Part shown: piece after piece, positions 7,391-59,272 of the stretch | Position numbering within the stretch: the first letter of the stretch is position 1 | How the letters are laid out: every line of letters begins with the position of its first letter | From: Archangium violaceum | Lineage (GTDB): Bacteria; Myxococcota; Myxococcia; Myxococcales; Myxococcaceae | Direction: 5' to 3' | DNA length: 64,000 nucleotides | Assembly: GCF_016859125.1 (NCBI RefSeq) | Contig: NZ_CP069338.1 | Span: 10,543,501-10,607,500 of the forward strand | Notes under the pieces: model-generated | What the model saw: the letters and a program-made list of their open reading frames with translations, nothing else | Database searches by the model: none | Told to the model about the DNA's origin: nothing | Position numbers and translations under genes: made by a program

Positions 7391-7599
7391 ATGGAGGAGG
7401 TGTCGCGCAATCGGGATGTACGCCCAGGAGCGCGCCCTATTGCAAGCCAGGTGACACTGGACGCCCAACAGGCGGGCAGGCGGCCCATTCCCCGGGCTCC
7501 GGCCTGAAAATGGTAGGAGGTGTAGCGCCCTGTAGCGGAAATTTTGCCCGGCGGATCCGAAGGGTGTATTTGCTCGCCTGCCCGCTTGCCGGAGCACGA

Positions 7600-10164
7600 A
7601 TGGTCGACAGCACGGATCTCGCTCAGGTACTCCACGAAGCCAACGACATCGCTCAGAGCGTGGCACAGAAGCCTACCTCGGCGCACGTACTCCTGGCCCT
7701 CTTCACGGTGGAAAACCGGGCGCAGCTCCTCTTGAAGGAGAAGGGCATCGACGAGGACACCCTCCTGGAGAGGATGACCTCGCACCCCTCGGAGCAGGAC
7801 GGGCTGGTGCGCGAGCTGTGCATGCGGGCCCGGGAAATCGCCCAGAGCAGCGGCGCGCGCGAGACGGACTGCATGCACCTGCTGGTGGCCTTCACCCGGG
7901 TGCGCTGCGCCGCGAGCGAGCTGCTGGCCAAGACGGGCCTGCACCTCATCAACCTGGGCAACACCGCCCTCTCCTATTGCCTGAGCGGCAGCATGCCCCG
8001 GAGGCTCCAGCCGGGCCGCGGCTCCTCGATGGCGGTGGGCATGCCCCGGCCGAACCGGCCCCTGGGTGCTCCGCCCTCGGCCCCGCCCGCCTCTGCGCTC
8101 GCGCTGAGCGCGCTCCGCCCCGCCTCCGCGCCGCCCCGGACACCGTCCCGGCCCGCGATCTCCCCGCGCGACCTCATCGACGAGGTGCACGAGGACGTGG
8201 CCCCCGCTGCCGAGCCCACACCGGTGCCCCCGCGGCCCACGCGCACCCCGACCCCGGTTCCCGCCGCCCTGGCTCCGGCCGCGCCCCTGGCTCCGGCCGC
8301 GCCCCTGGTGGCTCCGGCCCCCGCTCCCACCCCGGCACCGCGTCCGGCCACGCCGGCCCGCGCCGCGCCCTCATTGGTGCTCGACGAGAAGCGCTTCCCC
8401 CTGCTCACCTCTCTGGGCCGCAACCTGAGCCGGCTCGCCCAGGAGGGAAAGCTGGATCCCGTGGTGGGCCGCTCCAAGGAGATCGAGGAGGTCATCGACG
8501 TCCTCGGCAAGCGGCGGACCAACAACCCGTGCCTGCTGGGTGAAGCGGGTGTGGGCAAGACGGCCGTGGTGGAGGGCGTGGCCCAGCGCCTGCTGGAGCT
8601 GCGCGGCTCCCTGGCCGAGAAGATCCTCCTCGAGCTGGACATGGCCACGCTGGTGGCCGGCACGCAGCTGCGCGGCGCGTTCTCCGAGAAGCTCAACGCC
8701 CTCAAGGATGAGGTGCGGCGCGCGGATGGGCGCGTGGTGGTCTTCATCGATGAGATCCACACGCTGGTGGGCGCGGGCTCCACCGGCGAGGGGCCGCAGG
8801 ACGCCGCCAACGAGCTGAAGACGGCCATGGCGCGCGGCGAGTTCCCCTGCATCGGCGCCACCACGCACGACGAGTACCGCAAGTTCATCTCGCAGGACCC
8901 GGCGCTGGAGCGGCGCTTCACCCCGGTGGTGGTGCACGAGCCGTCGGTGCCCGAGACGGTGGAGATCCTCCAGGGCATCATCGGCCGCTACGAGGACCAC
9001 CACGGCCTGCGCTACGCCCCCGAGGCGCTGGAGGCCGCCGCGTCCCTGGCCTCGCGCTACGTGACGGACCGCTTCATGCCGGACAAGGCCATCTCCGTGG
9101 TGGACCTGGCCGGTTCGCGCAGCCGCCGCGAGGGCAAGGAGCTGGTGGAGGCCTCGGACGTGGCGCGCGTGGTGGCGAAGATCGCCGGTATCCCCGAGGA
9201 GCGCCTGCTGATGACGGACTCGGCGCGGCTGCTCCGGCTGGAGGCGGACCTGGGCGAGCGCGTCATCGGCCACGAGGAGGCCATCAGCCGCATCGCCCGC
9301 GTCATCCGCCGCAACTACGCGGGCTTCGCCTCGCGCCGGCCCATGGGCTCCTTCCTCTTCCTGGGCCCCACGGGCGTGGGCAAGACGGAGATGGCGCGCG
9401 CGCTGGCCGAGGTGCTCTTCGGCAGCAAGGATCTGCTGGTGCGCCTGGACATGAGCGAGATGTCCGAGAGCCACGGCGTCTCCCGCCTCATCGGCTCGCC
9501 CGCGGGCTACGTGGGCTACGGAGATGGTGGCCAGCTCACCGAGCCGGTGCGCCGCCGCCCCTCGTGCGTGGTGGTGCTGGACGAGATCGAGAAGGCCCAC
9601 CGCGAGGTGCAGCTGCTCCTGCTCCAGGTGCTGGAGGAGGGCCGCCTCACCGACGGCAAGGGCCGGCACATCGACTTCTCCAACACCGTCATCATCCTGA
9701 CGACGAACCTGGGCGCGGAGGCCTTCCACCGCACCAGCCGCGCGATGGGCTTCGGGGCCTCGGCGGAGAGCCAGGGCGCGAACGACACGGACGCGGCCAG
9801 CAACGCCGCGCGCCAGGCCCTGCCGCCCGAGCTGTGGAACCGCATCGACGAGCGTCTCCCCTTCCGGCCCCTGGCCGAGGAGCAGGTGGCGCGCATCGCC
9901 ACGCTGCTGCTGGAGGGGAGCAGCCGGCGGCTCGCCACGGAGAAGGGCATCGAGTACGTGGCCGACGCGGACGTGGTGGCGTTGCTGATGAAGTCGGGCG
10001 GATTCGATCCGAAACTGGGCGCGCGGCCCATGCGCCAGGTGGTGCAGCGTCTGGTGGAGGCACCCCTGGCCGAGCGGATCCTCGCGGGCGAGTTCATGGC
10101 GGGCGACCGGGTGCGGGTGACCGTCCAAGGCGGAGAGCTGCAGTTCCTGCGCGAGAGCCGCTGA
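7600..10164 (+). CDS. Two-domain AAA+ Clp ATPase (ClpA/ClpC-like)
   Basis: An 854-aa Hsp100-type unfoldase. A Clp N-domain (about residues 1-140) is followed by a Pro/Ala-rich linker of roughly 110 residues, unusually long for the family. D1 has Walker A GEAGVGKT near residue 314 and Walker B VVFIDEIHTLVG. D2 has Walker A GPTGVGKTE near residue 589 and Walker B VVVLDEIEKAH. The two Walker A motifs are about 275 residues apart, as in ClpA and far less than in ClpB, so the ClpB middle coiled coil is absent. An MGF tripeptide near residue 715 may be a ClpP-docking loop. The ATG at 7600 is preceded by GGAG; upstream frame extension has no domain sequence. Confidence 0.92.
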   Translation: MVDSTDLAQVLHEANDIAQSVAQKPTSAHVLLALFTVENRAQLLLKEKGIDEDTLLERMTSHPSEQDGLVRELCMRAREIAQSSGARETDCMHLLVAFTRVRCAASELLAKTGLHLINLGNTALSYCLSGSMPRRLQPGRGSSMAVGMPRPNRPLGAPPSAPPASALALSALRPASAPPRTPSRPAISPRDLIDEVHEDVAPAAEPTPVPPRPTRTPTPVPAALAPAAPLAPAAPLVAPAPAPTPAPRPATPARAAPSLVLDEKRFPLLTSLGRNLSRLAQEGKLDPVVGRSKEIEEVIDVLGKRRTNNPCLLGEAGVGKTAVVEGVAQRLLELRGSLAEKILLELDMATLVAGTQLRGAFSEKLNALKDEVRRADGRVVVFIDEIHTLVGAGSTGEGPQDAANELKTAMARGEFPCIGATTHDEYRKFISQDPALERRFTPVVVHEPSVPETVEILQGIIGRYEDHHGLRYAPEALEAAASLASRYVTDRFMPDKAISVVDLAGSRSRREGKELVEASDVARVVAKIAGIPEERLLMTDSARLLRLEADLGERVIGHEEAISRIARVIRRNYAGFASRRPMGSFLFLGPTGVGKTEMARALAEVLFGSKDLLVRLDMSEMSESHGVSRLIGSPAGYVGYGDGGQLTEPVRRRPSCVVVLDEIEKAHREVQLLLLQVLEEGRLTDGKGRHIDFSNTVIILTTNLGAEAFHRTSRAMGFGASAESQGANDTDAASNAARQALPPELWNRIDERLPFRPLAEEQVARIATLLLEGSSRRLATEKGIEYVADADVVALLMKSGGFDPKLGARPMRQVVQRLVEAPLAERILAGEFMAGDRVRVTVQGGELQFLRESR

Positions 10165-52954: not shown

Positions 52955-55900
52955 CTAGCGCTTCTTCGCCTTCCGAGCGGGAGCGGTCTTCTTCGCCTTG
53001 GCGGTCGAAGCACGGGACTTCGGAGCCGAGGCACGCTTGGCGGCCGAGGCCCGCGTCGTCTTCTTCGCGGTGGGAGCCTTCTTGGCGGCCGCGACCCGAG
53101 CCGTCTTCTTCGTGGCACGAGCCGGCTTCTTCGCGGCGGCCTTCTTCGCGACGGGAGCCGTCTTCTTCGCACCCGTCCCCCGCGCGGCGGCCTTCTTCGC
53201 GGCGGCGCGAGGCGCAGCCTTCTTCCGAGCCCCGGCGGCGGCCCGCTTCTTCGCACGAGCCGGCTTCTCCTCGACCGCGGCGGCGGCCTTCCTGCGCCGC
53301 TTGGGAGGCACGGCCTGAACCGCCTCCCCGGTCGCCTCGCCCCCTTCGCGCGCGTCCAGCGCGGCCAGGGCGCGGATGCGATCGAAGCCCGCGGGCGCCG
53401 TCGGAATGATCCGCTCGACGATCTCGACGGACTCGGTCTGGCGCTCCACGGTGGGCGGAGCCACTTCCGCTGTCGCCACCTGCTCGGCCGGAGCCTGCTC
53501 CACGGCAGCGGCCTCGGCGGCCCGCAGCGCCTCGGCCTCGGCCATCGAGAGCCCGTGCTCTCCAACGACCCGCTCGGGACGACCCCAGCGCTCCCTCCGC
53601 TCCTTCTCCCTCGCGGCACGGGCGGCCTGCTTCCTCTCCTCGCGGGCCAGGTGCTTCTGCACCTTCTGCTCCTGGCGCTCCACGGCCTCGAGGGCCTTCA
53701 CGGCCCTGCCTGCGACCTCCAGGGCCTCGAACTCGATGCGCCGCAGGGCCAGGTTCACGTTGACGAGCCGCACCCGGGCCTTCTGTCCGACGCGGACGCG
53801 GAAGCCGCCCGGCAGCGTGAGGGCGTGCAGGGTCTTGTCGAAGCGGGCCCCGAACCCGAGCGAGTCCGCGCGGACGAGCCCCTCGACGTGCACGTCGTCG
53901 AGCTCCACGAAGAAGCCGAACTCGACGATGCCGGCCACGGTGGCGGCGAACTCCTCGCCGAGGCGGTCCTTCATCATCAGGGCGGCGTAGTAGGAGACGA
54001 CCTCGCGCTCCACCTGCATGGCGGCGCGCTCGCGCTCGGAGCTCTGGGAGGCCATGTCCTCCAGCAGCTGCTCCTCGCGCTCGAGCTGGGCGGGCGAGCG
54101 TTCCTGACCGCCACGGGACCAGTGCGCCTTCAGGAGCCGGTGGACGAGCAGGTCCGGGTAGCGGCGGATGGGCGAGGTGAAGTGGAGGTAGTACTCGGCG
54201 GCCAGTCCATAGTGGCCGATGTCCGAGGCCGTGTAGACGGCCTGCATCATCGAGCGCAGCAGGAGCTGGTTGAGGGCGCGCTCCTCGGGGTGGCCCTGGA
54301 GCTGGGCCATGAAGGCATTGAGTTCCTTCGAGGAGAGCTCCTCGGCCTGGAGGCGGAAGCCATAGGCCTGGGCGAGCTGGGCGAAGACGGCCAGCTTCTC
54401 CTCGTCGGGCTCACCGTGGTAGCGGTAGACGCTGGGCAGGCCCTGGTCGGCGAAGAACTTCGCCACCGCCTCGTTGGCGGCGAGCATGCACTCCTCGATG
54501 AGCCGGTGGCTGTCCTTGCGCTCGCGGCGCTCCATGCGAGCGGGCAGGCCGTCCTCGCCCATCACCACCTTGTGCTCGGGCAGGTTGAAGTCGATGGCGC
54601 CGCGCTCCTTGCGCATCCGCATCAGCACGCGGGCCAGCTCCATGAGCCGCTCGAAGTGGGGCTTGAAGGCGTTGCGATGGGGGACGTCCTTGCCGTCGAG
54701 CACGTCCTGCACCTCGTTGTAGGTGCAGCGGGCGTGGCTGCGCATGACGCCCGGGTACAGCTCGCTGGACACGAGCCGCCCGCTCCTGTCGAGCACCATG
54801 TCGGCGACCATGCACAGCCGGTCCTCCTCGGGGCGCAGCGAGCAGATGCCGTTGCTGAGCCGCTCGGGGAGCATGGGCAGCACGCGGTCCGGCAGATACA
54901 CGGAGGTGGCGCGGCGCAGGGCCTCGGCGTCGAGCGCGGTGCCCTCTCGCACGTAGTGCGTCACGTCGGCGATGGCCACCACGAGCCGCCACCCCTGCGG
55001 GTGGGGCTCGGCGTAGACGGCGTCGTCGAAGTCGCGGGCGTCCTCGCCGTCGATGGTGACGAGCGCCATCTGCCGCAGATCCCGCCGCTCCTCGCCGCGA
55101 GCCTCCTCCTCGGTGACCACCGGACGGATGCGGTCGGCCTCGTCCATGACCTCGGGAGGGAACTCGTCGGAGAAGCCCTGCGAGTAGGCGATGGAGAGCA
55201 CCTCGGTGCTCGGGTCCCCGGGCTTGCCGAGCGAGCCGGCCACCTCGCCGAAGAGGCCCTCGCCGGGCTCCAGCAGCTCCGCGCCGATGCCCAGGCGCAC
55301 CTTCACCACGTCCCCGTCTCGCGCCATCTGGGTGGGCGGGACGCGGATGTTGCCCTGGATCTGCAGGTTCTTGTCGTAGGGGATCACCAGCGCATGGCGC
55401 CGGCCTCGATCCACGTAGGTGCCGACGGCGAGCTGCCGGGTGCGGCCGACCACCTGGAGGAGACGGCCCTCCATGCGTCCGGGGCGGCCCCAGGCCTCCA
55501 CGATCACACGATCATTGTCGAGGGCCCGCGCGGCCTCCTGAGGCGGAAGGAAGATGTTGTCGCCCTGACCCGAGCTGGGGTGGACGAAGCCGTAGCCGTC
55601 GCGGTGCACGTGGAGGATCCCCTCCACGGTGGAGGTCTCCAGACCCTCTCCCCCGCCGCGTCCACCACGGCCTCGCGGCTCGAAACGCTCCTCGCGGAAG
55701 GCGCGTCCTCCGCCTCCACGACCGGGGCGGCGATCCTGCTCGAAACGACCGCGGGTGTCGGGCCGGCGCTCGTCCCGCGCGAAGCGTCCGCGGGGCTCGG
55801 GGCGACCCGCCTGCTTCCGGGTGTCGAAACGGCTACCCGAGGGCCGCTCCTGTCGGGCGAAACGATTCCGGGGCTCGGCGCCGAGCTCCTCGAGGCGACC

Positions 55901-56332
55901 GCGCGGGCCGCGGGGCTCCATTCGGCCTTCGCGCACGAAACGGCCCCGAGGCTCGGGCCGGTCCCCCCGCGAGAAACGTCCCTGGGGGGCGAAGCGTGCA
56001 TCACGAGCATCGGGCGCGGGCCGGGCCTCCTCCCGAGGACCACCCGCCCGGCGCTCGTCGAATTTTCCCCCCCGCTCGCGGTCGCGCCCCCCACCGGGAG
56101 CCTGCTCCCCACCGTTTCCATTGCCCTCATGGGAGGCTGGCCGCCTGCCCTGCAGGCTGAAGCGCTTGCCCTCCCTGATGAGCTCGCCTCGCCGGACCAT
56201 TTCCCGGAGCGTGCGCTTGAGCTGCGTCTGCTGACCGGGGTGCAGGTGGGTAAGCCGGAGCAGTTCCTTGACGCCGAGCGGGTGCTTGGACTCCGCCAGA
56301 TGTCGCCTCACGTCTTGATGAAGGTCGGTCAC
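52955..56332 (-). CDS. rnr: Ribonuclease R with Arg/Gly-rich insert and H1-like tail
   Basis: About 1125 aa, against roughly 800 in E. coli. Order: winged-helix start (DLHQDVRRHLAESKHPLGVK); an Arg/Gly/Asp-rich region at about 70-230 with repeated RFxRxxRPEPRGRF-like units; cold-shock domains; RNB catalytic core (VTIDGEDARDFDDAVYAEPH, with the metal-binding Asp cluster, and YLHFTSPIRRYPDLLVHRLL); an S1 domain (VAGIVEFGFFVELDDVHVEG); a basic linker; and a C-terminal 100 residues of KKA/AAKK repeats like histone H1. It degrades structured RNA 3' to 5'. The GTG at 56332 (preceded by GGGAA) is preferred over the TTG at 56344. Both basic regions probably bind RNA or DNA. Confidence 0.92.
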   Translation of the reverse strand: MTDLHQDVRRHLAESKHPLGVKELLRLTHLHPGQQTQLKRTLREMVRRGELIREGKRFSLQGRRPASHEGNGNGGEQAPGGGRDRERGGKFDERRAGGPREEARPAPDARDARFAPQGRFSRGDRPEPRGRFVREGRMEPRGPRGRLEELGAEPRNRFARQERPSGSRFDTRKQAGRPEPRGRFARDERRPDTRGRFEQDRRPGRGGGGRAFREERFEPRGRGGRGGGEGLETSTVEGILHVHRDGYGFVHPSSGQGDNIFLPPQEAARALDNDRVIVEAWGRPGRMEGRLLQVVGRTRQLAVGTYVDRGRRHALVIPYDKNLQIQGNIRVPPTQMARDGDVVKVRLGIGAELLEPGEGLFGEVAGSLGKPGDPSTEVLSIAYSQGFSDEFPPEVMDEADRIRPVVTEEEARGEERRDLRQMALVTIDGEDARDFDDAVYAEPHPQGWRLVVAIADVTHYVREGTALDAEALRRATSVYLPDRVLPMLPERLSNGICSLRPEEDRLCMVADMVLDRSGRLVSSELYPGVMRSHARCTYNEVQDVLDGKDVPHRNAFKPHFERLMELARVLMRMRKERGAIDFNLPEHKVVMGEDGLPARMERRERKDSHRLIEECMLAANEAVAKFFADQGLPSVYRYHGEPDEEKLAVFAQLAQAYGFRLQAEELSSKELNAFMAQLQGHPEERALNQLLLRSMMQAVYTASDIGHYGLAAEYYLHFTSPIRRYPDLLVHRLLKAHWSRGGQERSPAQLEREEQLLEDMASQSSERERAAMQVEREVVSYYAALMMKDRLGEEFAATVAGIVEFGFFVELDDVHVEGLVRADSLGFGARFDKTLHALTLPGGFRVRVGQKARVRLVNVNLALRRIEFEALEVAGRAVKALEAVERQEQKVQKHLAREERKQAARAAREKERRERWGRPERVVGEHGLSMAEAEALRAAEAAAVEQAPAEQVATAEVAPPTVERQTESVEIVERIIPTAPAGFDRIRALAALDAREGGEATGEAVQAVPPKRRRKAAAAVEEKPARAKKRAAAGARKKAAPRAAAKKAAARGTGAKKTAPVAKKAAAKKPARATKKTARVAAAKKAPTAKKTTRASAAKRASAPKSRASTAKAKKTAPARKAKKR

Positions 56333-56453
56333 GAGAGTTCCCAAAGCAGGGAGCCCGACGGGCCCTGAAAAAAATAAGCCCGGCAGGTCCCACAGGGGAC
56401 CCCCGGGCGGAAGAACGACGATGTCGCGAGGTCTCGGCTCGTCAGAAAGGCCC

Positions 56454-57809
56454 TCAGGGCTTGACGGTCACGTTGAGCTTGAACGAGCGCTCCACCTGAC
56501 CGGGGTTGAACGCCTTGGCGAGGAAGAACTCCACCTCGGAGGACCCGGGGTTGCGCGGGGTGAAGAAGAACTCGCGGGTGGCGGGGCCCCCATCGGAGCT
56601 CGGCTCGAAGTTGGCTTCCCGCAGACCCACGCGCTTGGCCGCCGTGGGCTCGATGGCCCAGGTGAAGCCCGGCTGCTCCTGCAGGCGCACGGTGAAGGCG
56701 TGGTTGAGTCGCACCTCGATGCTGCCGGGCTGCTCGCCCTCCACCTGCACGGTCTCCAGACCCTCGCGGGAGATGGGCCGGAGCTCGGAGGGACGCGGCT
56801 CCACGTTCTCCACGTCGATGCGGCCACCCCAGCCGGAGGACTTGTCCACCACGCCCGTGACGGAGAGCGTCTGGCCCAGGAACTTGCGCAGTCCCTTGGC
56901 GCCCTTGCCCTCGAGGATGAAGGACACCTGCTGCCGGGTGCCGCCATTGGACACCACCAGCACGAACTCCTCGCCCGTCATCTCCAGGTTGCCACGCAGC
57001 GCGGCGAAGCCCTTCATCCCCGCGCCCATGCCGGCCGAGATGACCTGCGACACCTCTCCAGGGGAGAGGTAGCGCAACCGGGGCTCCGCCTCCGCGGGCT
57101 CCGGCTCGGGCGCTTCGGCCTCCGGCTTCTTGGCGGAGAACTTCCGCACGTCCACCGTGCCGCCGTAGTTGGTGGTCTTCTTGATGAGACCGCTGACGGA
57201 CACCTTGTGATCCAGGTACGCCGGCAGCACCTCCTGATCCGGCCCCTGGAGGATGAAGTTCAGCTCGCGCTTGTCGCGGCCCACCACCACCAGACAGGGC
57301 AGACCGTCGAGCACGGTCAGACGACCCTTGAGGCTGCCCTCGCCCACCACGCCACGACCCGCACCGGCGGTGAGCAGTTGCTCCATGTCGCGCTTGTTGA
57401 GGGGCTCGGCCAGGGGGGGCAGCTTCGTGGCGCGGGGCCTCGGCTTCTCGGCCTGGGGCGGCATCACGATCTCCGCCCGGGCGGCGGCCTCCCTGCCCTT
57501 GGCGGAGCTCTCCTTCCCCTTGGGGGCGGCCTCCTTGCCCTTGGCGATCTCCTTCACCTTGGTGGCCGCCTTCACGGCGACCTCCTTCACCTGGGTGGCG
57601 GCCTTCTTCACGGCGGCGGCGGGCTCGGACTTCTTCTTCACCGCGGACGCCTTCTTCTCCGCCTTCGCGCTTCCAGTCGCCTTCGTCACCAACTTCGCGG
57701 CGGCCTTCGCCACGCTCTTGGACGCGGTCTTGAGGACACCCGGTTTCGTCGACTTGACCTTCTTCGCAGCGGGAGTCGCCTTCTTGGCCCCGGACCTGGG
57801 CTTGGCCAT
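56454..57809 (-). CDS. H1-like tail protein with C-terminal chagasin-like (I42) domain
   Basis: A 451-aa protein. Residues 1-110 are Lys/Ala-rich like histone H1 (KPRSGAKKATPAAKKVKSTK). Two related OB-like modules follow at about 120-225 and 240-340 (VSGLIKKTTNYGGTVDVRKF versus VTGVVDKSSGWGGRIDVENV). The last 100 residues resemble I42 cysteine-protease inhibitors: FTVRLQEQPGFTWAIEPT, then FFTPRNPGSSEVEFFLAKAF. There is no signal peptide, so it is cytoplasmic and perhaps nucleoid-associated. The ATG at 57809 follows AGGAGA. A strong promoter candidate lies about 90 bp upstream. The combination of parts is unusual and its function is unknown. Confidence 0.8.
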   Translation of the reverse strand: MAKPRSGAKKATPAAKKVKSTKPGVLKTASKSVAKAAAKLVTKATGSAKAEKKASAVKKKSEPAAAVKKAATQVKEVAVKAATKVKEIAKGKEAAPKGKESSAKGREAAARAEIVMPPQAEKPRPRATKLPPLAEPLNKRDMEQLLTAGAGRGVVGEGSLKGRLTVLDGLPCLVVVGRDKRELNFILQGPDQEVLPAYLDHKVSVSGLIKKTTNYGGTVDVRKFSAKKPEAEAPEPEPAEAEPRLRYLSPGEVSQVISAGMGAGMKGFAALRGNLEMTGEEFVLVVSNGGTRQQVSFILEGKGAKGLRKFLGQTLSVTGVVDKSSGWGGRIDVENVEPRPSELRPISREGLETVQVEGEQPGSIEVRLNHAFTVRLQEQPGFTWAIEPTAAKRVGLREANFEPSSDGGPATREFFFTPRNPGSSEVEFFLAKAFNPGQVERSFKLNVTVKP

Positions 57810-57895
57810 CGACGCTGTCTCCTTGAATTCCCGTGTCATCTCAACGGGTTGGCGCATCTACCCCCGACCGGACGCGGGCCTCGGGATCACCCGAG

Positions 57896-57924: not shown

Positions 57925-58045
57925 ACAAAGTCTTGAATTTCCTAGGAACTTTGATCCCTGAAGCAGCCTGTCGCTACACACCTGTTTCGCATTGCCCGGG
58001 CAAGGCCGATCAGCCCTGGGAGATCACCCGGAGGGAGTCCGACCC

Positions 58046-59272
58046 ATGAAGGAAGATGCCGCGCTGCTGCCCGTAGAGGAGGCACGAGCCCGTACACTCG
58101 CCCTGGTCCAACCGTTACCCCCCGAGTGGGTCCGGCTGGACGAGGCCCTCGGGAGGGCCCTGGCGCGGGACGTGCGCGCGCAACGGACCCTGCCGCCCTG
58201 GGACAACTCGGCCATGGACGGCTTCGCGGTGCGCAGCGCCGACCTGACGGGTCCCCTGCCCGTCCGCCTGAAGGTGAAGGAGACGATCTACGCCGGCCAG
58301 ACGCCCCGGGAGGAGGTCCAGCCGGGAACCTGCGCGCGGATCATGACCGGGGCCCCACTGCCGGCGGGGGCGGACGCGGTAGTGATGCGCGAGCGGACCC
58401 GGCTGGCCCCCGAGGCGGACACGGTGGAGATCCTCGAGGCGGTGGGGCCGGGCCACTTCGTGCGGCCGAGGGGCGAGGACGCGCGGGAGGGTGAGCTCCT
58501 CCTCTCCCGGGGGACGCCGCTGGGGATTCCGGAGCTGGGGCTGGTGGTGGGCCAGGGGCTGCTGACGGTCCCGGTGCCGCGCCGCCCCCGGGTGGCCATC
58601 CTCTCCACCGGCGACGAACTGTGCCGGGCGGACGCCCCCGCCGAGGGTCGGATCGTGGACGCCAACGCCCCCGCGCTGAGCCTGGCCGTCCTGCGGGCGG
58701 GCGGAGTGCCCTCGGTGCTCGGCATCGCCCGGGACACGCTGGAGGACGTGTACCAGCACCTCGCGGCGGCCGAGGGGTATGACCTGGTGCTGACGAGCGC
58801 CGGGATGTCCGTGGGCGAACACGACTTCGTCCGCGAGGCCCTGGAGAAGCTGGGCGTGGAGCGGGACTTCTGGCGCGTGGCCATCAAGCCGGGCAAGCCG
58901 CTCGCCGTGGGCCGCAAGGGGGCCGCCGTCTACATCGGACTGCCGGGCAACCCCACCTCCTCGCTCGTCACCTTCGAGCTCTTCGTCCGCCCCGCCCTGC
59001 GCCGCATGCTGGGGCACGAGGACGTGGAGCCACCGCGGGTCTCCGGCAGGCTCGAGGGCGAGTTGCGCAAGCCCGAGGGGCTGGCCCACTTCGTCCGGGT
59101 GACGGCCGCCTGGCGGGACGGGGAGCTCTGGGCCCGGCCCCTGTCCACCCAGACGTCGGGCGCCCTGCGCTCGGCGGCCTCGGCGACCCACCTGCTCCAC
59201 TTTCCACGCTCATCCAGTAGGCTGGCTACTGGTGACAAGGTGGAATTGCTTCCTCTCTCCTGGGGAGCTTGA
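58046..59272 (+). CDS. moeA: Molybdopterin molybdenumtransferase MoeA
   Basis: A 408-aa MoeA, inserting molybdenum into adenylated molybdopterin. Family motifs are TLPPWDNSAMDGFAVRSADL, CARIMTGAPLPAGADAVVM, RPRGEDAREGELLLSRGTPL, ILSTGDELC, VLTSAGMSVGEHDFVREALE and IGLPGNPTSSLVTFELFVRP. The ATG at 58046 follows GGAGGGAG; the open frame upstream has no domain sequence. It precedes ribA by about 70 nt, so the two cofactor genes are possibly co-transcribed. No molybdenum-cofactor riboswitch was recognised in the leader. Confidence 0.95.
   Translation: MKEDAALLPVEEARARTLALVQPLPPEWVRLDEALGRALARDVRAQRTLPPWDNSAMDGFAVRSADLTGPLPVRLKVKETIYAGQTPREEVQPGTCARIMTGAPLPAGADAVVMRERTRLAPEADTVEILEAVGPGHFVRPRGEDAREGELLLSRGTPLGIPELGLVVGQGLLTVPVPRRPRVAILSTGDELCRADAPAEGRIVDANAPALSLAVLRAGGVPSVLGIARDTLEDVYQHLAAAEGYDLVLTSAGMSVGEHDFVREALEKLGVERDFWRVAIKPGKPLAVGRKGAAVYIGLPGNPTSSLVTFELFVRPALRRMLGHEDVEPPRVSGRLEGELRKPEGLAHFVRVTAAWRDGELWARPLSTQTSGALRSAASATHLLHFPRSSSRLATGDKVELLPLSWGA

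Follow-up and report, generated by a model that had tools for sequence, protein, structure and literature searches.

The window, i.e. the whole stretch of 64,000 nt that was analysed, belongs to a genome of 12.68 Mb in a single contig. It carries a gene for a 451-aa protein between the RNase R gene and a divergently transcribed neighbour. The features of this region are as follows:

52955..56344, minus strand: rnr, encoding RNase R with CSD1, CSD2, RNB and S1 domains (Pfam) and a Lys/Ala-rich C-terminal tail; its TTG start is uncertain
56378..56408, minus strand: a hairpin and then a U-run between the gene of the 451-aa protein and rnr, resembling an intrinsic terminator in its sequence
56454..57809, minus strand: gene of the 451-aa protein (tail, OB, OB, I42 fold); open reading frame with the stop codon included, conserved family-wide
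56460..56753, minus strand: Ig-like domain of the I42/chagasin fold with degenerate inhibitory loops, residues 353-450 (Pfam, fold)
56793..57062, minus strand: OB2, residues 250-339, homologous to OB1, with a sub-threshold DUF5818 match (profiles, AlphaFold2)
57135..57395, minus strand: OB1, residues 139-225, a helix plus beta-beta-beta-alpha-beta-beta (alignment, AlphaFold2)
57417..57434, minus strand: conserved linker motif RATKLP at the junction of the tail and OB1 (alignment of relatives)
57459..57809, minus strand: basic tail, residues 1-117, 25% K and 26% A, net charge +24 (composition)
57818..57824, minus strand: Shine-Dalgarno sequence AAGGAGA ahead of the ATG at 57809, a perfect match read from the sequence
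57992..59272, plus strand: molybdopterin gene, which we take to be moeA-like; divergent upstream neighbour (position)

The start at 57809 is the right one: AAGGAGA directly precedes it and the same signal is seen in most relatives, where it also stands upstream of TTG and GTG starts. The original prediction described an open reading frame at 56454-57809 on the minus strand that joins a tail, paired modules and an I42 end. Conservation, profiles and the predicted fold bear this out, and the architecture is firm. A signal peptide had been predicted to be absent, in agreement with the hydrophobicity of the tail, which averages at most 0.46 on the Kyte-Doolittle scale over any 15 residues; the protein is accordingly classed, from its sequence, as cytoplasmic-type. 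Known folds are joined here in a new, family-specific combination in which the inhibitor fold is disarmed. Searches with the 451-aa protein gave no matches in the PDB by sequence, none in PHROGs, and only weak, meaningless ones with PADLOC.

The distribution of the gene is narrow and nearly complete. With the protein as query, 57 of 58 genomes of the family gave a match, compared with 0 of 40 genomes from elsewhere in the same order. In a set of 195 genomes of the phylum, a profile built from 28 relatives matched 95 of 96 family genomes and 0 of 99 others, where the latter count takes 80 non-matching genomes as lying outside the family, as the kinship-sorted list suggests. The single family genome without the gene comes from an assembly that is 87% complete and split into about 900 contigs. 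A scan of genome contigs with the window protein, which finds close relatives only, gave five of them, and all five belong to the same group. No match to the 451-aa protein was found on plasmids, and none of the eight pattern matches on viral contigs is a relative. The gene is present in single copy, save for one copy split by a frameshift, and the genome sequences thus place it in the single-copy core of one myxobacterial family, the Myxococcaceae in the broad sense. Counts from the alignment refer to 55 relatives: L062, the frameshifted copy from a metagenome-assembled genome, was left out, L051 was missed by the ORF-based blastp search and found by tblastn, and L031-L035, which by their coordinates seem to be the same places as five loci of the genome set, were counted once. 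In the open-licence literature, no paper was found that joins Myxococcus and chagasin, or RNase R, lysine-rich and Myxococcus. The available portions of open-licence texts on essential genes, I42 architectures and family signature proteins hold nothing on the 451-aa protein. For this core gene, which has no name and occurs once per genome in a bacterial family that has been studied a great deal, no function was found in the literature searched.

The claim of two repeated, OB-like beta modules holds. The repeat is only visible with profiles: plain BLASTP of OB1 against OB2 as single sequences found nothing, and profile-profile comparison with hhalign aligned them over 88 columns with a probability of 98, an E-value of 1.3e-13 and 31% identity. 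Both modules are predicted as beta-beta-beta-alpha-beta-beta with the helix between strands 3 and 4, which is the OB order; the AlphaFold2 models were built from only 6 sequences and have a pLDDT of 73-77. OB folds dominate the structural neighbours of the pair in the PDB, with Z-scores of at most 7.9, and include bacterial SSB, RPA, Ten1, PriB, tRNA synthetases and Potempin A. No single OB family clearly tops the fold lists among the families listed, and for these models neighbours at this level support the fold, not a specific relative. The modules resemble OB nucleic-acid binders (SSB, RPA, PriB, Ten1 and the anticodon domains of class II tRNA synthetases) in strand order with a capping helix, in tandem arrangement and in the basic character of OB1, but differ from them in having no family sequence match above cut-off and in the Z-scores given above. 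Within the protein, conservation is highest in OB1, with a mean majority-residue share of 0.85, and its net charge is +4 to +6 in all 55 relatives. Proteins can be ligands of OB folds too, as the presence of Potempin A among the fold neighbours illustrates.

DUF5818 (PF19135) was considered as the family of OB2 and rejected. Its alignment to residues 273-338 spans nearly the whole model (E 0.022), but at 14.8 bits it is below the cut-off of 27, and matches of equal level occur in unrelated genomes, with matches in 14 of 14 control genomes. A DUF5818 match above cut-off does exist in the same genome, in an unrelated frame of 177 aa (G000:C1:8808725-8808838, L064).

The gene order around the 451-aa protein is conserved. 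In every locus whose contig runs on downstream for more than 250 nt (54 of 54), rnr follows on the same strand (52 recognised by the RNB core and two short loci by the CSD part). The moeA-like gene lies upstream in divergent orientation at 52 of 57 loci; one of the five exceptions lacks upstream sequence and three are reduced genomes, in which a ribA relative directly follows in place of moeA. Also kept as neighbours are ribA and a lipB-like gene. At L143 and L145, two loci of a sister family, moeA and rnr adjoin directly and are divergent, and at L144, from another family, rnr is flanked by a lipB-like ORF and a relative of the mutS2-like ORF. Because the gene is absent at all three loci and moeA and rnr adjoin in L143 and L145, it arose or landed once in the gap between moeA and rnr. 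Much of the linkage to rnr is accounted for by the gene order having been inherited.

Of 55 loci, 12 have a hairpin with a U-run; 11 of these loci belong to genera g1, g11 and g4, and in most other genera the rule used did not find the hairpin. The hairpin at 56378-56408 is strong and similar across these 11 loci, and a simple terminator scan missed the copy in the window. In L047, an exported-type ORF of 234 aa without a known family (7597-8301) overlaps the stop codon of the orthologue and separates it from rnr. Since the hairpin occurs in the Archangium clade and an ORF lies between the genes in L047, one transcript shared with rnr is, as far as the sequences indicate, not general. Just past the window, about 16 kb from rnr, lies a second RNB-domain protein with an open frame of 638 aa (G000:C1:10614353-10615339, plus strand).

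A change in RNase R itself was found in genus g20, whose genomes G024, G037 and G043 are reduced to 2.1-2.7 Mb and have RNase R as their only RNB-family enzyme. Here, RNase R (L060:6925-8511; L059:176-1780, minus strand; L061:4244-5830) is only 533-535 aa long, beginning just before RNB and lacking CSD1, CSD2 and anything N-terminal of them; Pfam detects RNB and at most an S1 remnant. CSD2 was not found anywhere in these three small and partly fragmentary genomes and was found in 5 of 5 comparison genomes. Elsewhere in the family, both CSDs are present in RNase R wherever the locus extends far enough to include them, which amounts to 49 of 52 plus two short loci on whose stretch only the CSD part of the enzyme lies. 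The RNB active-site stretch IDGEDAKDFDDAV is intact in g20 (IDDEDAKDFDDAV in L060). The first start codons of rnr in g20 are 9-21 nt past the stop of the orthologue, which keeps the tail, the OB pair and the I42-fold domain, and the tails are the longest seen (191-224 aa).

According to two papers, the CSDs of RNase R bind RNA and gate the substrate into the catalytic channel (PMC12320835, PMC4042491). Like these CSDs (PF08206, PF17876), the OB pair consists of two OB-type domains in tandem; it is encoded beside rnr and is still there in the genomes whose RNase R no longer has such domains. Unlike them, it matches neither Pfam family, i.e. has no detectable sequence relation to them, and it is located on a separate polypeptide with an extra I42-fold domain and a long N-terminal tail. 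A neighbour with tandem OB modules that is kept where the gates of RNase R are lost is what a partner would look like. This is suggestive and no more, because it is one event in one genus.

The 451-aa protein is tentatively read, with somewhat less than even confidence, as a cytoplasmic nucleic-acid-binding protein of one family whose most likely role is that of an RNA-binding partner of RNase R. For this protein we infer RNA binding, contact with RNase R and a role for each domain. The disordered Lys/Ala tail would tether the protein to RNA or ribosomes, and the tandem OB modules would hold on to single strands of nucleic acid. The I42-fold domain, now without its protease-binding loops, could be reused as an Ig-like docking module for a partner, which may be RNase R. 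In genus g20 with its reduced genomes, the OB pair may substitute for the cold-shock domains lost from RNase R. The fold and repeat of the modules, the basic tail in 51 of 51 relatives, the restriction to the family, the linkage to rnr in 54 of 54 loci and the loss of the CSDs in g20 argue for a partner of RNase R. Against it, the order of moeA, ribA and the lipB-like gene is inherited as well, the hairpin and the L047 ORF part the gene from rnr, the CSD loss is one event, and the OB matches stop at Z 7.9 and concern the fold only. A further-reaching version is a split RNase R, in which the tail, the OB pair and the disarmed chagasin-fold domain replace the gating OB domains in one lineage and feed RNA in trans, while in the relatives with larger genomes they act as an additional loading subunit alongside the complete enzyme. 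This version we consider rather unlikely. If the partner role is true, RNase R would have in this protein an accessory subunit specific to the clade, and nature would offer an example of RNA-gating domains shifted to another polypeptide.

Alternatively, the protein could be a housekeeping protein that binds nucleic acid, or polyphosphate and ribosomes, with no link to RNase R, its neighbourhood being inherited from the single insertion between moeA and rnr. The conserved order of the moeA, ribA and lipB-like neighbours, the terminator-like hairpin in one clade and the gene between the orthologue and rnr in L047 are all consistent with this. It does not account for RNase R having lost its CSDs, with near-coupled spacing, in precisely those reduced genomes that keep the gene, and such an unlinked role seems doubtful, though it has to be taken seriously.

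Another alternative concerns the tail, which the original prediction had called H1-like and had used, together with the tail of RNase R, to propose a nucleoid-linked group. The tail (residues 1-117) is taken as disordered from its composition. It is basic in 51 of 51 relatives measured, with a length of 66-224 aa and a net charge of +15 to +55, and its sequence is poorly conserved in the family alignment. These statistics are based on 51 relatives, as L045 is cut and L029, L043 and L044 have no Shine-Dalgarno start under the rule used. The likeness to histone H1-like proteins stands for the Lys/Ala-rich basic composition but does not extend to homology, since neither histone H1 nor a bacterial H1-like family in Pfam or NCBIfam matches the 451-aa protein at E<=1; "H1-like" is a matter of composition only. 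Similarly, the Lys/Ala tail of RNase R exists in this genome (last 129 aa, 22% K, 36% A, net charge +40) but is not conserved across the family, in which only some genomes have this version and the Lys share of its C-terminal tail is 0.02-0.20 in the complete sequences measured. A K/R-rich C-terminus tied to ribosomes and SmpB is described as general for RNase R in the two papers cited above (PMC12320835, PMC4042491). Because such a C-terminus is general and the Lys/Ala version is unconserved, the tail of RNase R is weak evidence for a nucleoid group, and the shared composition is at least as good a pointer to RNA and ribosomes.

A nucleoid-associated protein would hold double-stranded DNA through the tail without sequence preference and single-stranded DNA through the OB pair, and its I42-fold domain would recruit a partner. 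The composition and charge of the tail fit this, as do SSB, RPA, PriB and Ten1 among the fold neighbours. A precedent from the same bacterial group is the chemoreceptor FrzCD of Myxococcus, likewise a cytoplasmic protein, which has no folded domain in common with the 451-aa protein. FrzCD is reported to bind the nucleoid via a positively charged N-terminal tail (PMC5716589). Nevertheless, basic tails bind RNA equally well, the OB matches take in tRNA synthetases, no H1 or nucleoid family is matched, and the sole link at gene level is to RNase R. A nucleoid protein seems somewhat less likely, with a modest lean towards a partner of RNase R in its place.

The C-terminal domain was predicted to match I42, and this was found: Pfam Inhibitor_I42 (PF09394) matches residues 366-447 with an E-value of 8.9e-7 and 29.5 bits against a cut-off of 27.2, and the model of the domain superposes on EhICP2 with Z 12.9 and on chagasin with Z 11.8. 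Several relatives fall just under the Pfam cut-off, and it is the only I42 match of the 451-aa protein's genome. Chagasin grips proteases via three loops with the motifs NPTTG, GXGG and RPW/F (PMC2607524). In the family of the 451-aa protein, all 55 aligned relatives have an L2 of the form E-x-x-[GR]-x-x-W, two residues short and without NPTTG and its threonines. GXGG is absent from a shortened L4 (6 members in an alignment together with 15 other I42 domains, and 26 rows of the family alignment), and RPW/F is absent from L6, where FFL[AGS]K is followed by, e.g., AFNP, ALTP or THNP (26 of 26 rows; these L6 counts come from the alignment rows, as the automated L6 pattern caught another FFL in some of them). 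In comparison I42 domains of the same phylum, L2 has its full length in 15 of 15, with xTG in 11 of 15 and R[PS][WF] in L6 in 11 of 15; the last two counts were read by eye, and L102 was excluded from this alignment for its short locus. Peptidase_C1, the papain family, has no match in this genome; of 14 family genomes tested, 3 show weak partial matches and the other 11 show none. A target from a foreign organism is conceivable.

The protein thus shares with chagasin/ICP (MEROPS I42) the Ig-like fold and a Pfam match above cut-off, but differs in the loss of the L2, L4 and L6 motifs across the whole family, in the fusion to a tail and an OB pair, in not being exported, and in the absence of a papain-type target from the genome. 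The domain is "chagasin-like" in fold only. The inhibition of cysteine proteases suggested by the original prediction is not upheld, as the three inhibitory loops are degenerate family-wide and Peptidase_C1 is absent from the genome; from these sequences, protease inhibition is unlikely. Accordingly, a functional I42 inhibitor on a nucleic-acid anchor would agree with the Pfam match and the chagasin-family fold (Z 11-12.9) and is very improbable given the loops, the missing target and the lack of a signal peptide-like stretch. Equally improbable is an inhibitor or regulator of another protease class with inhibitory OB modules as in Potempin A, since this OB-fold metallopeptidase inhibitor, though among the top fold neighbours (Z 7.5-7.8), ties in Z with SSB and Ten1 and targets metallopeptidases, and the 451-aa protein is cytoplasmic-type and basic.

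The I42-fold domain has newly conserved residues (AKRxxLRE, FFFTPRNPG and FFLAK), which suggest that it may still bind something. As the chagasin fold is kept though the inhibitor loops are lost, the I42 Pfam label alone would mislead annotators towards a protease inhibitor. True-looking I42 inhibitors also seem to exist beside the 451-aa protein in its bacterial family, because L095, L096 and L098 of the comparison set come from it. These are other I42 proteins from three genomes of genus g11 (match region about 1501-1776) that have kept RPW. The copy in L098 has an in-frame TAG, and the protein in L096 has, by eye, a lipoprotein-like N-terminus.
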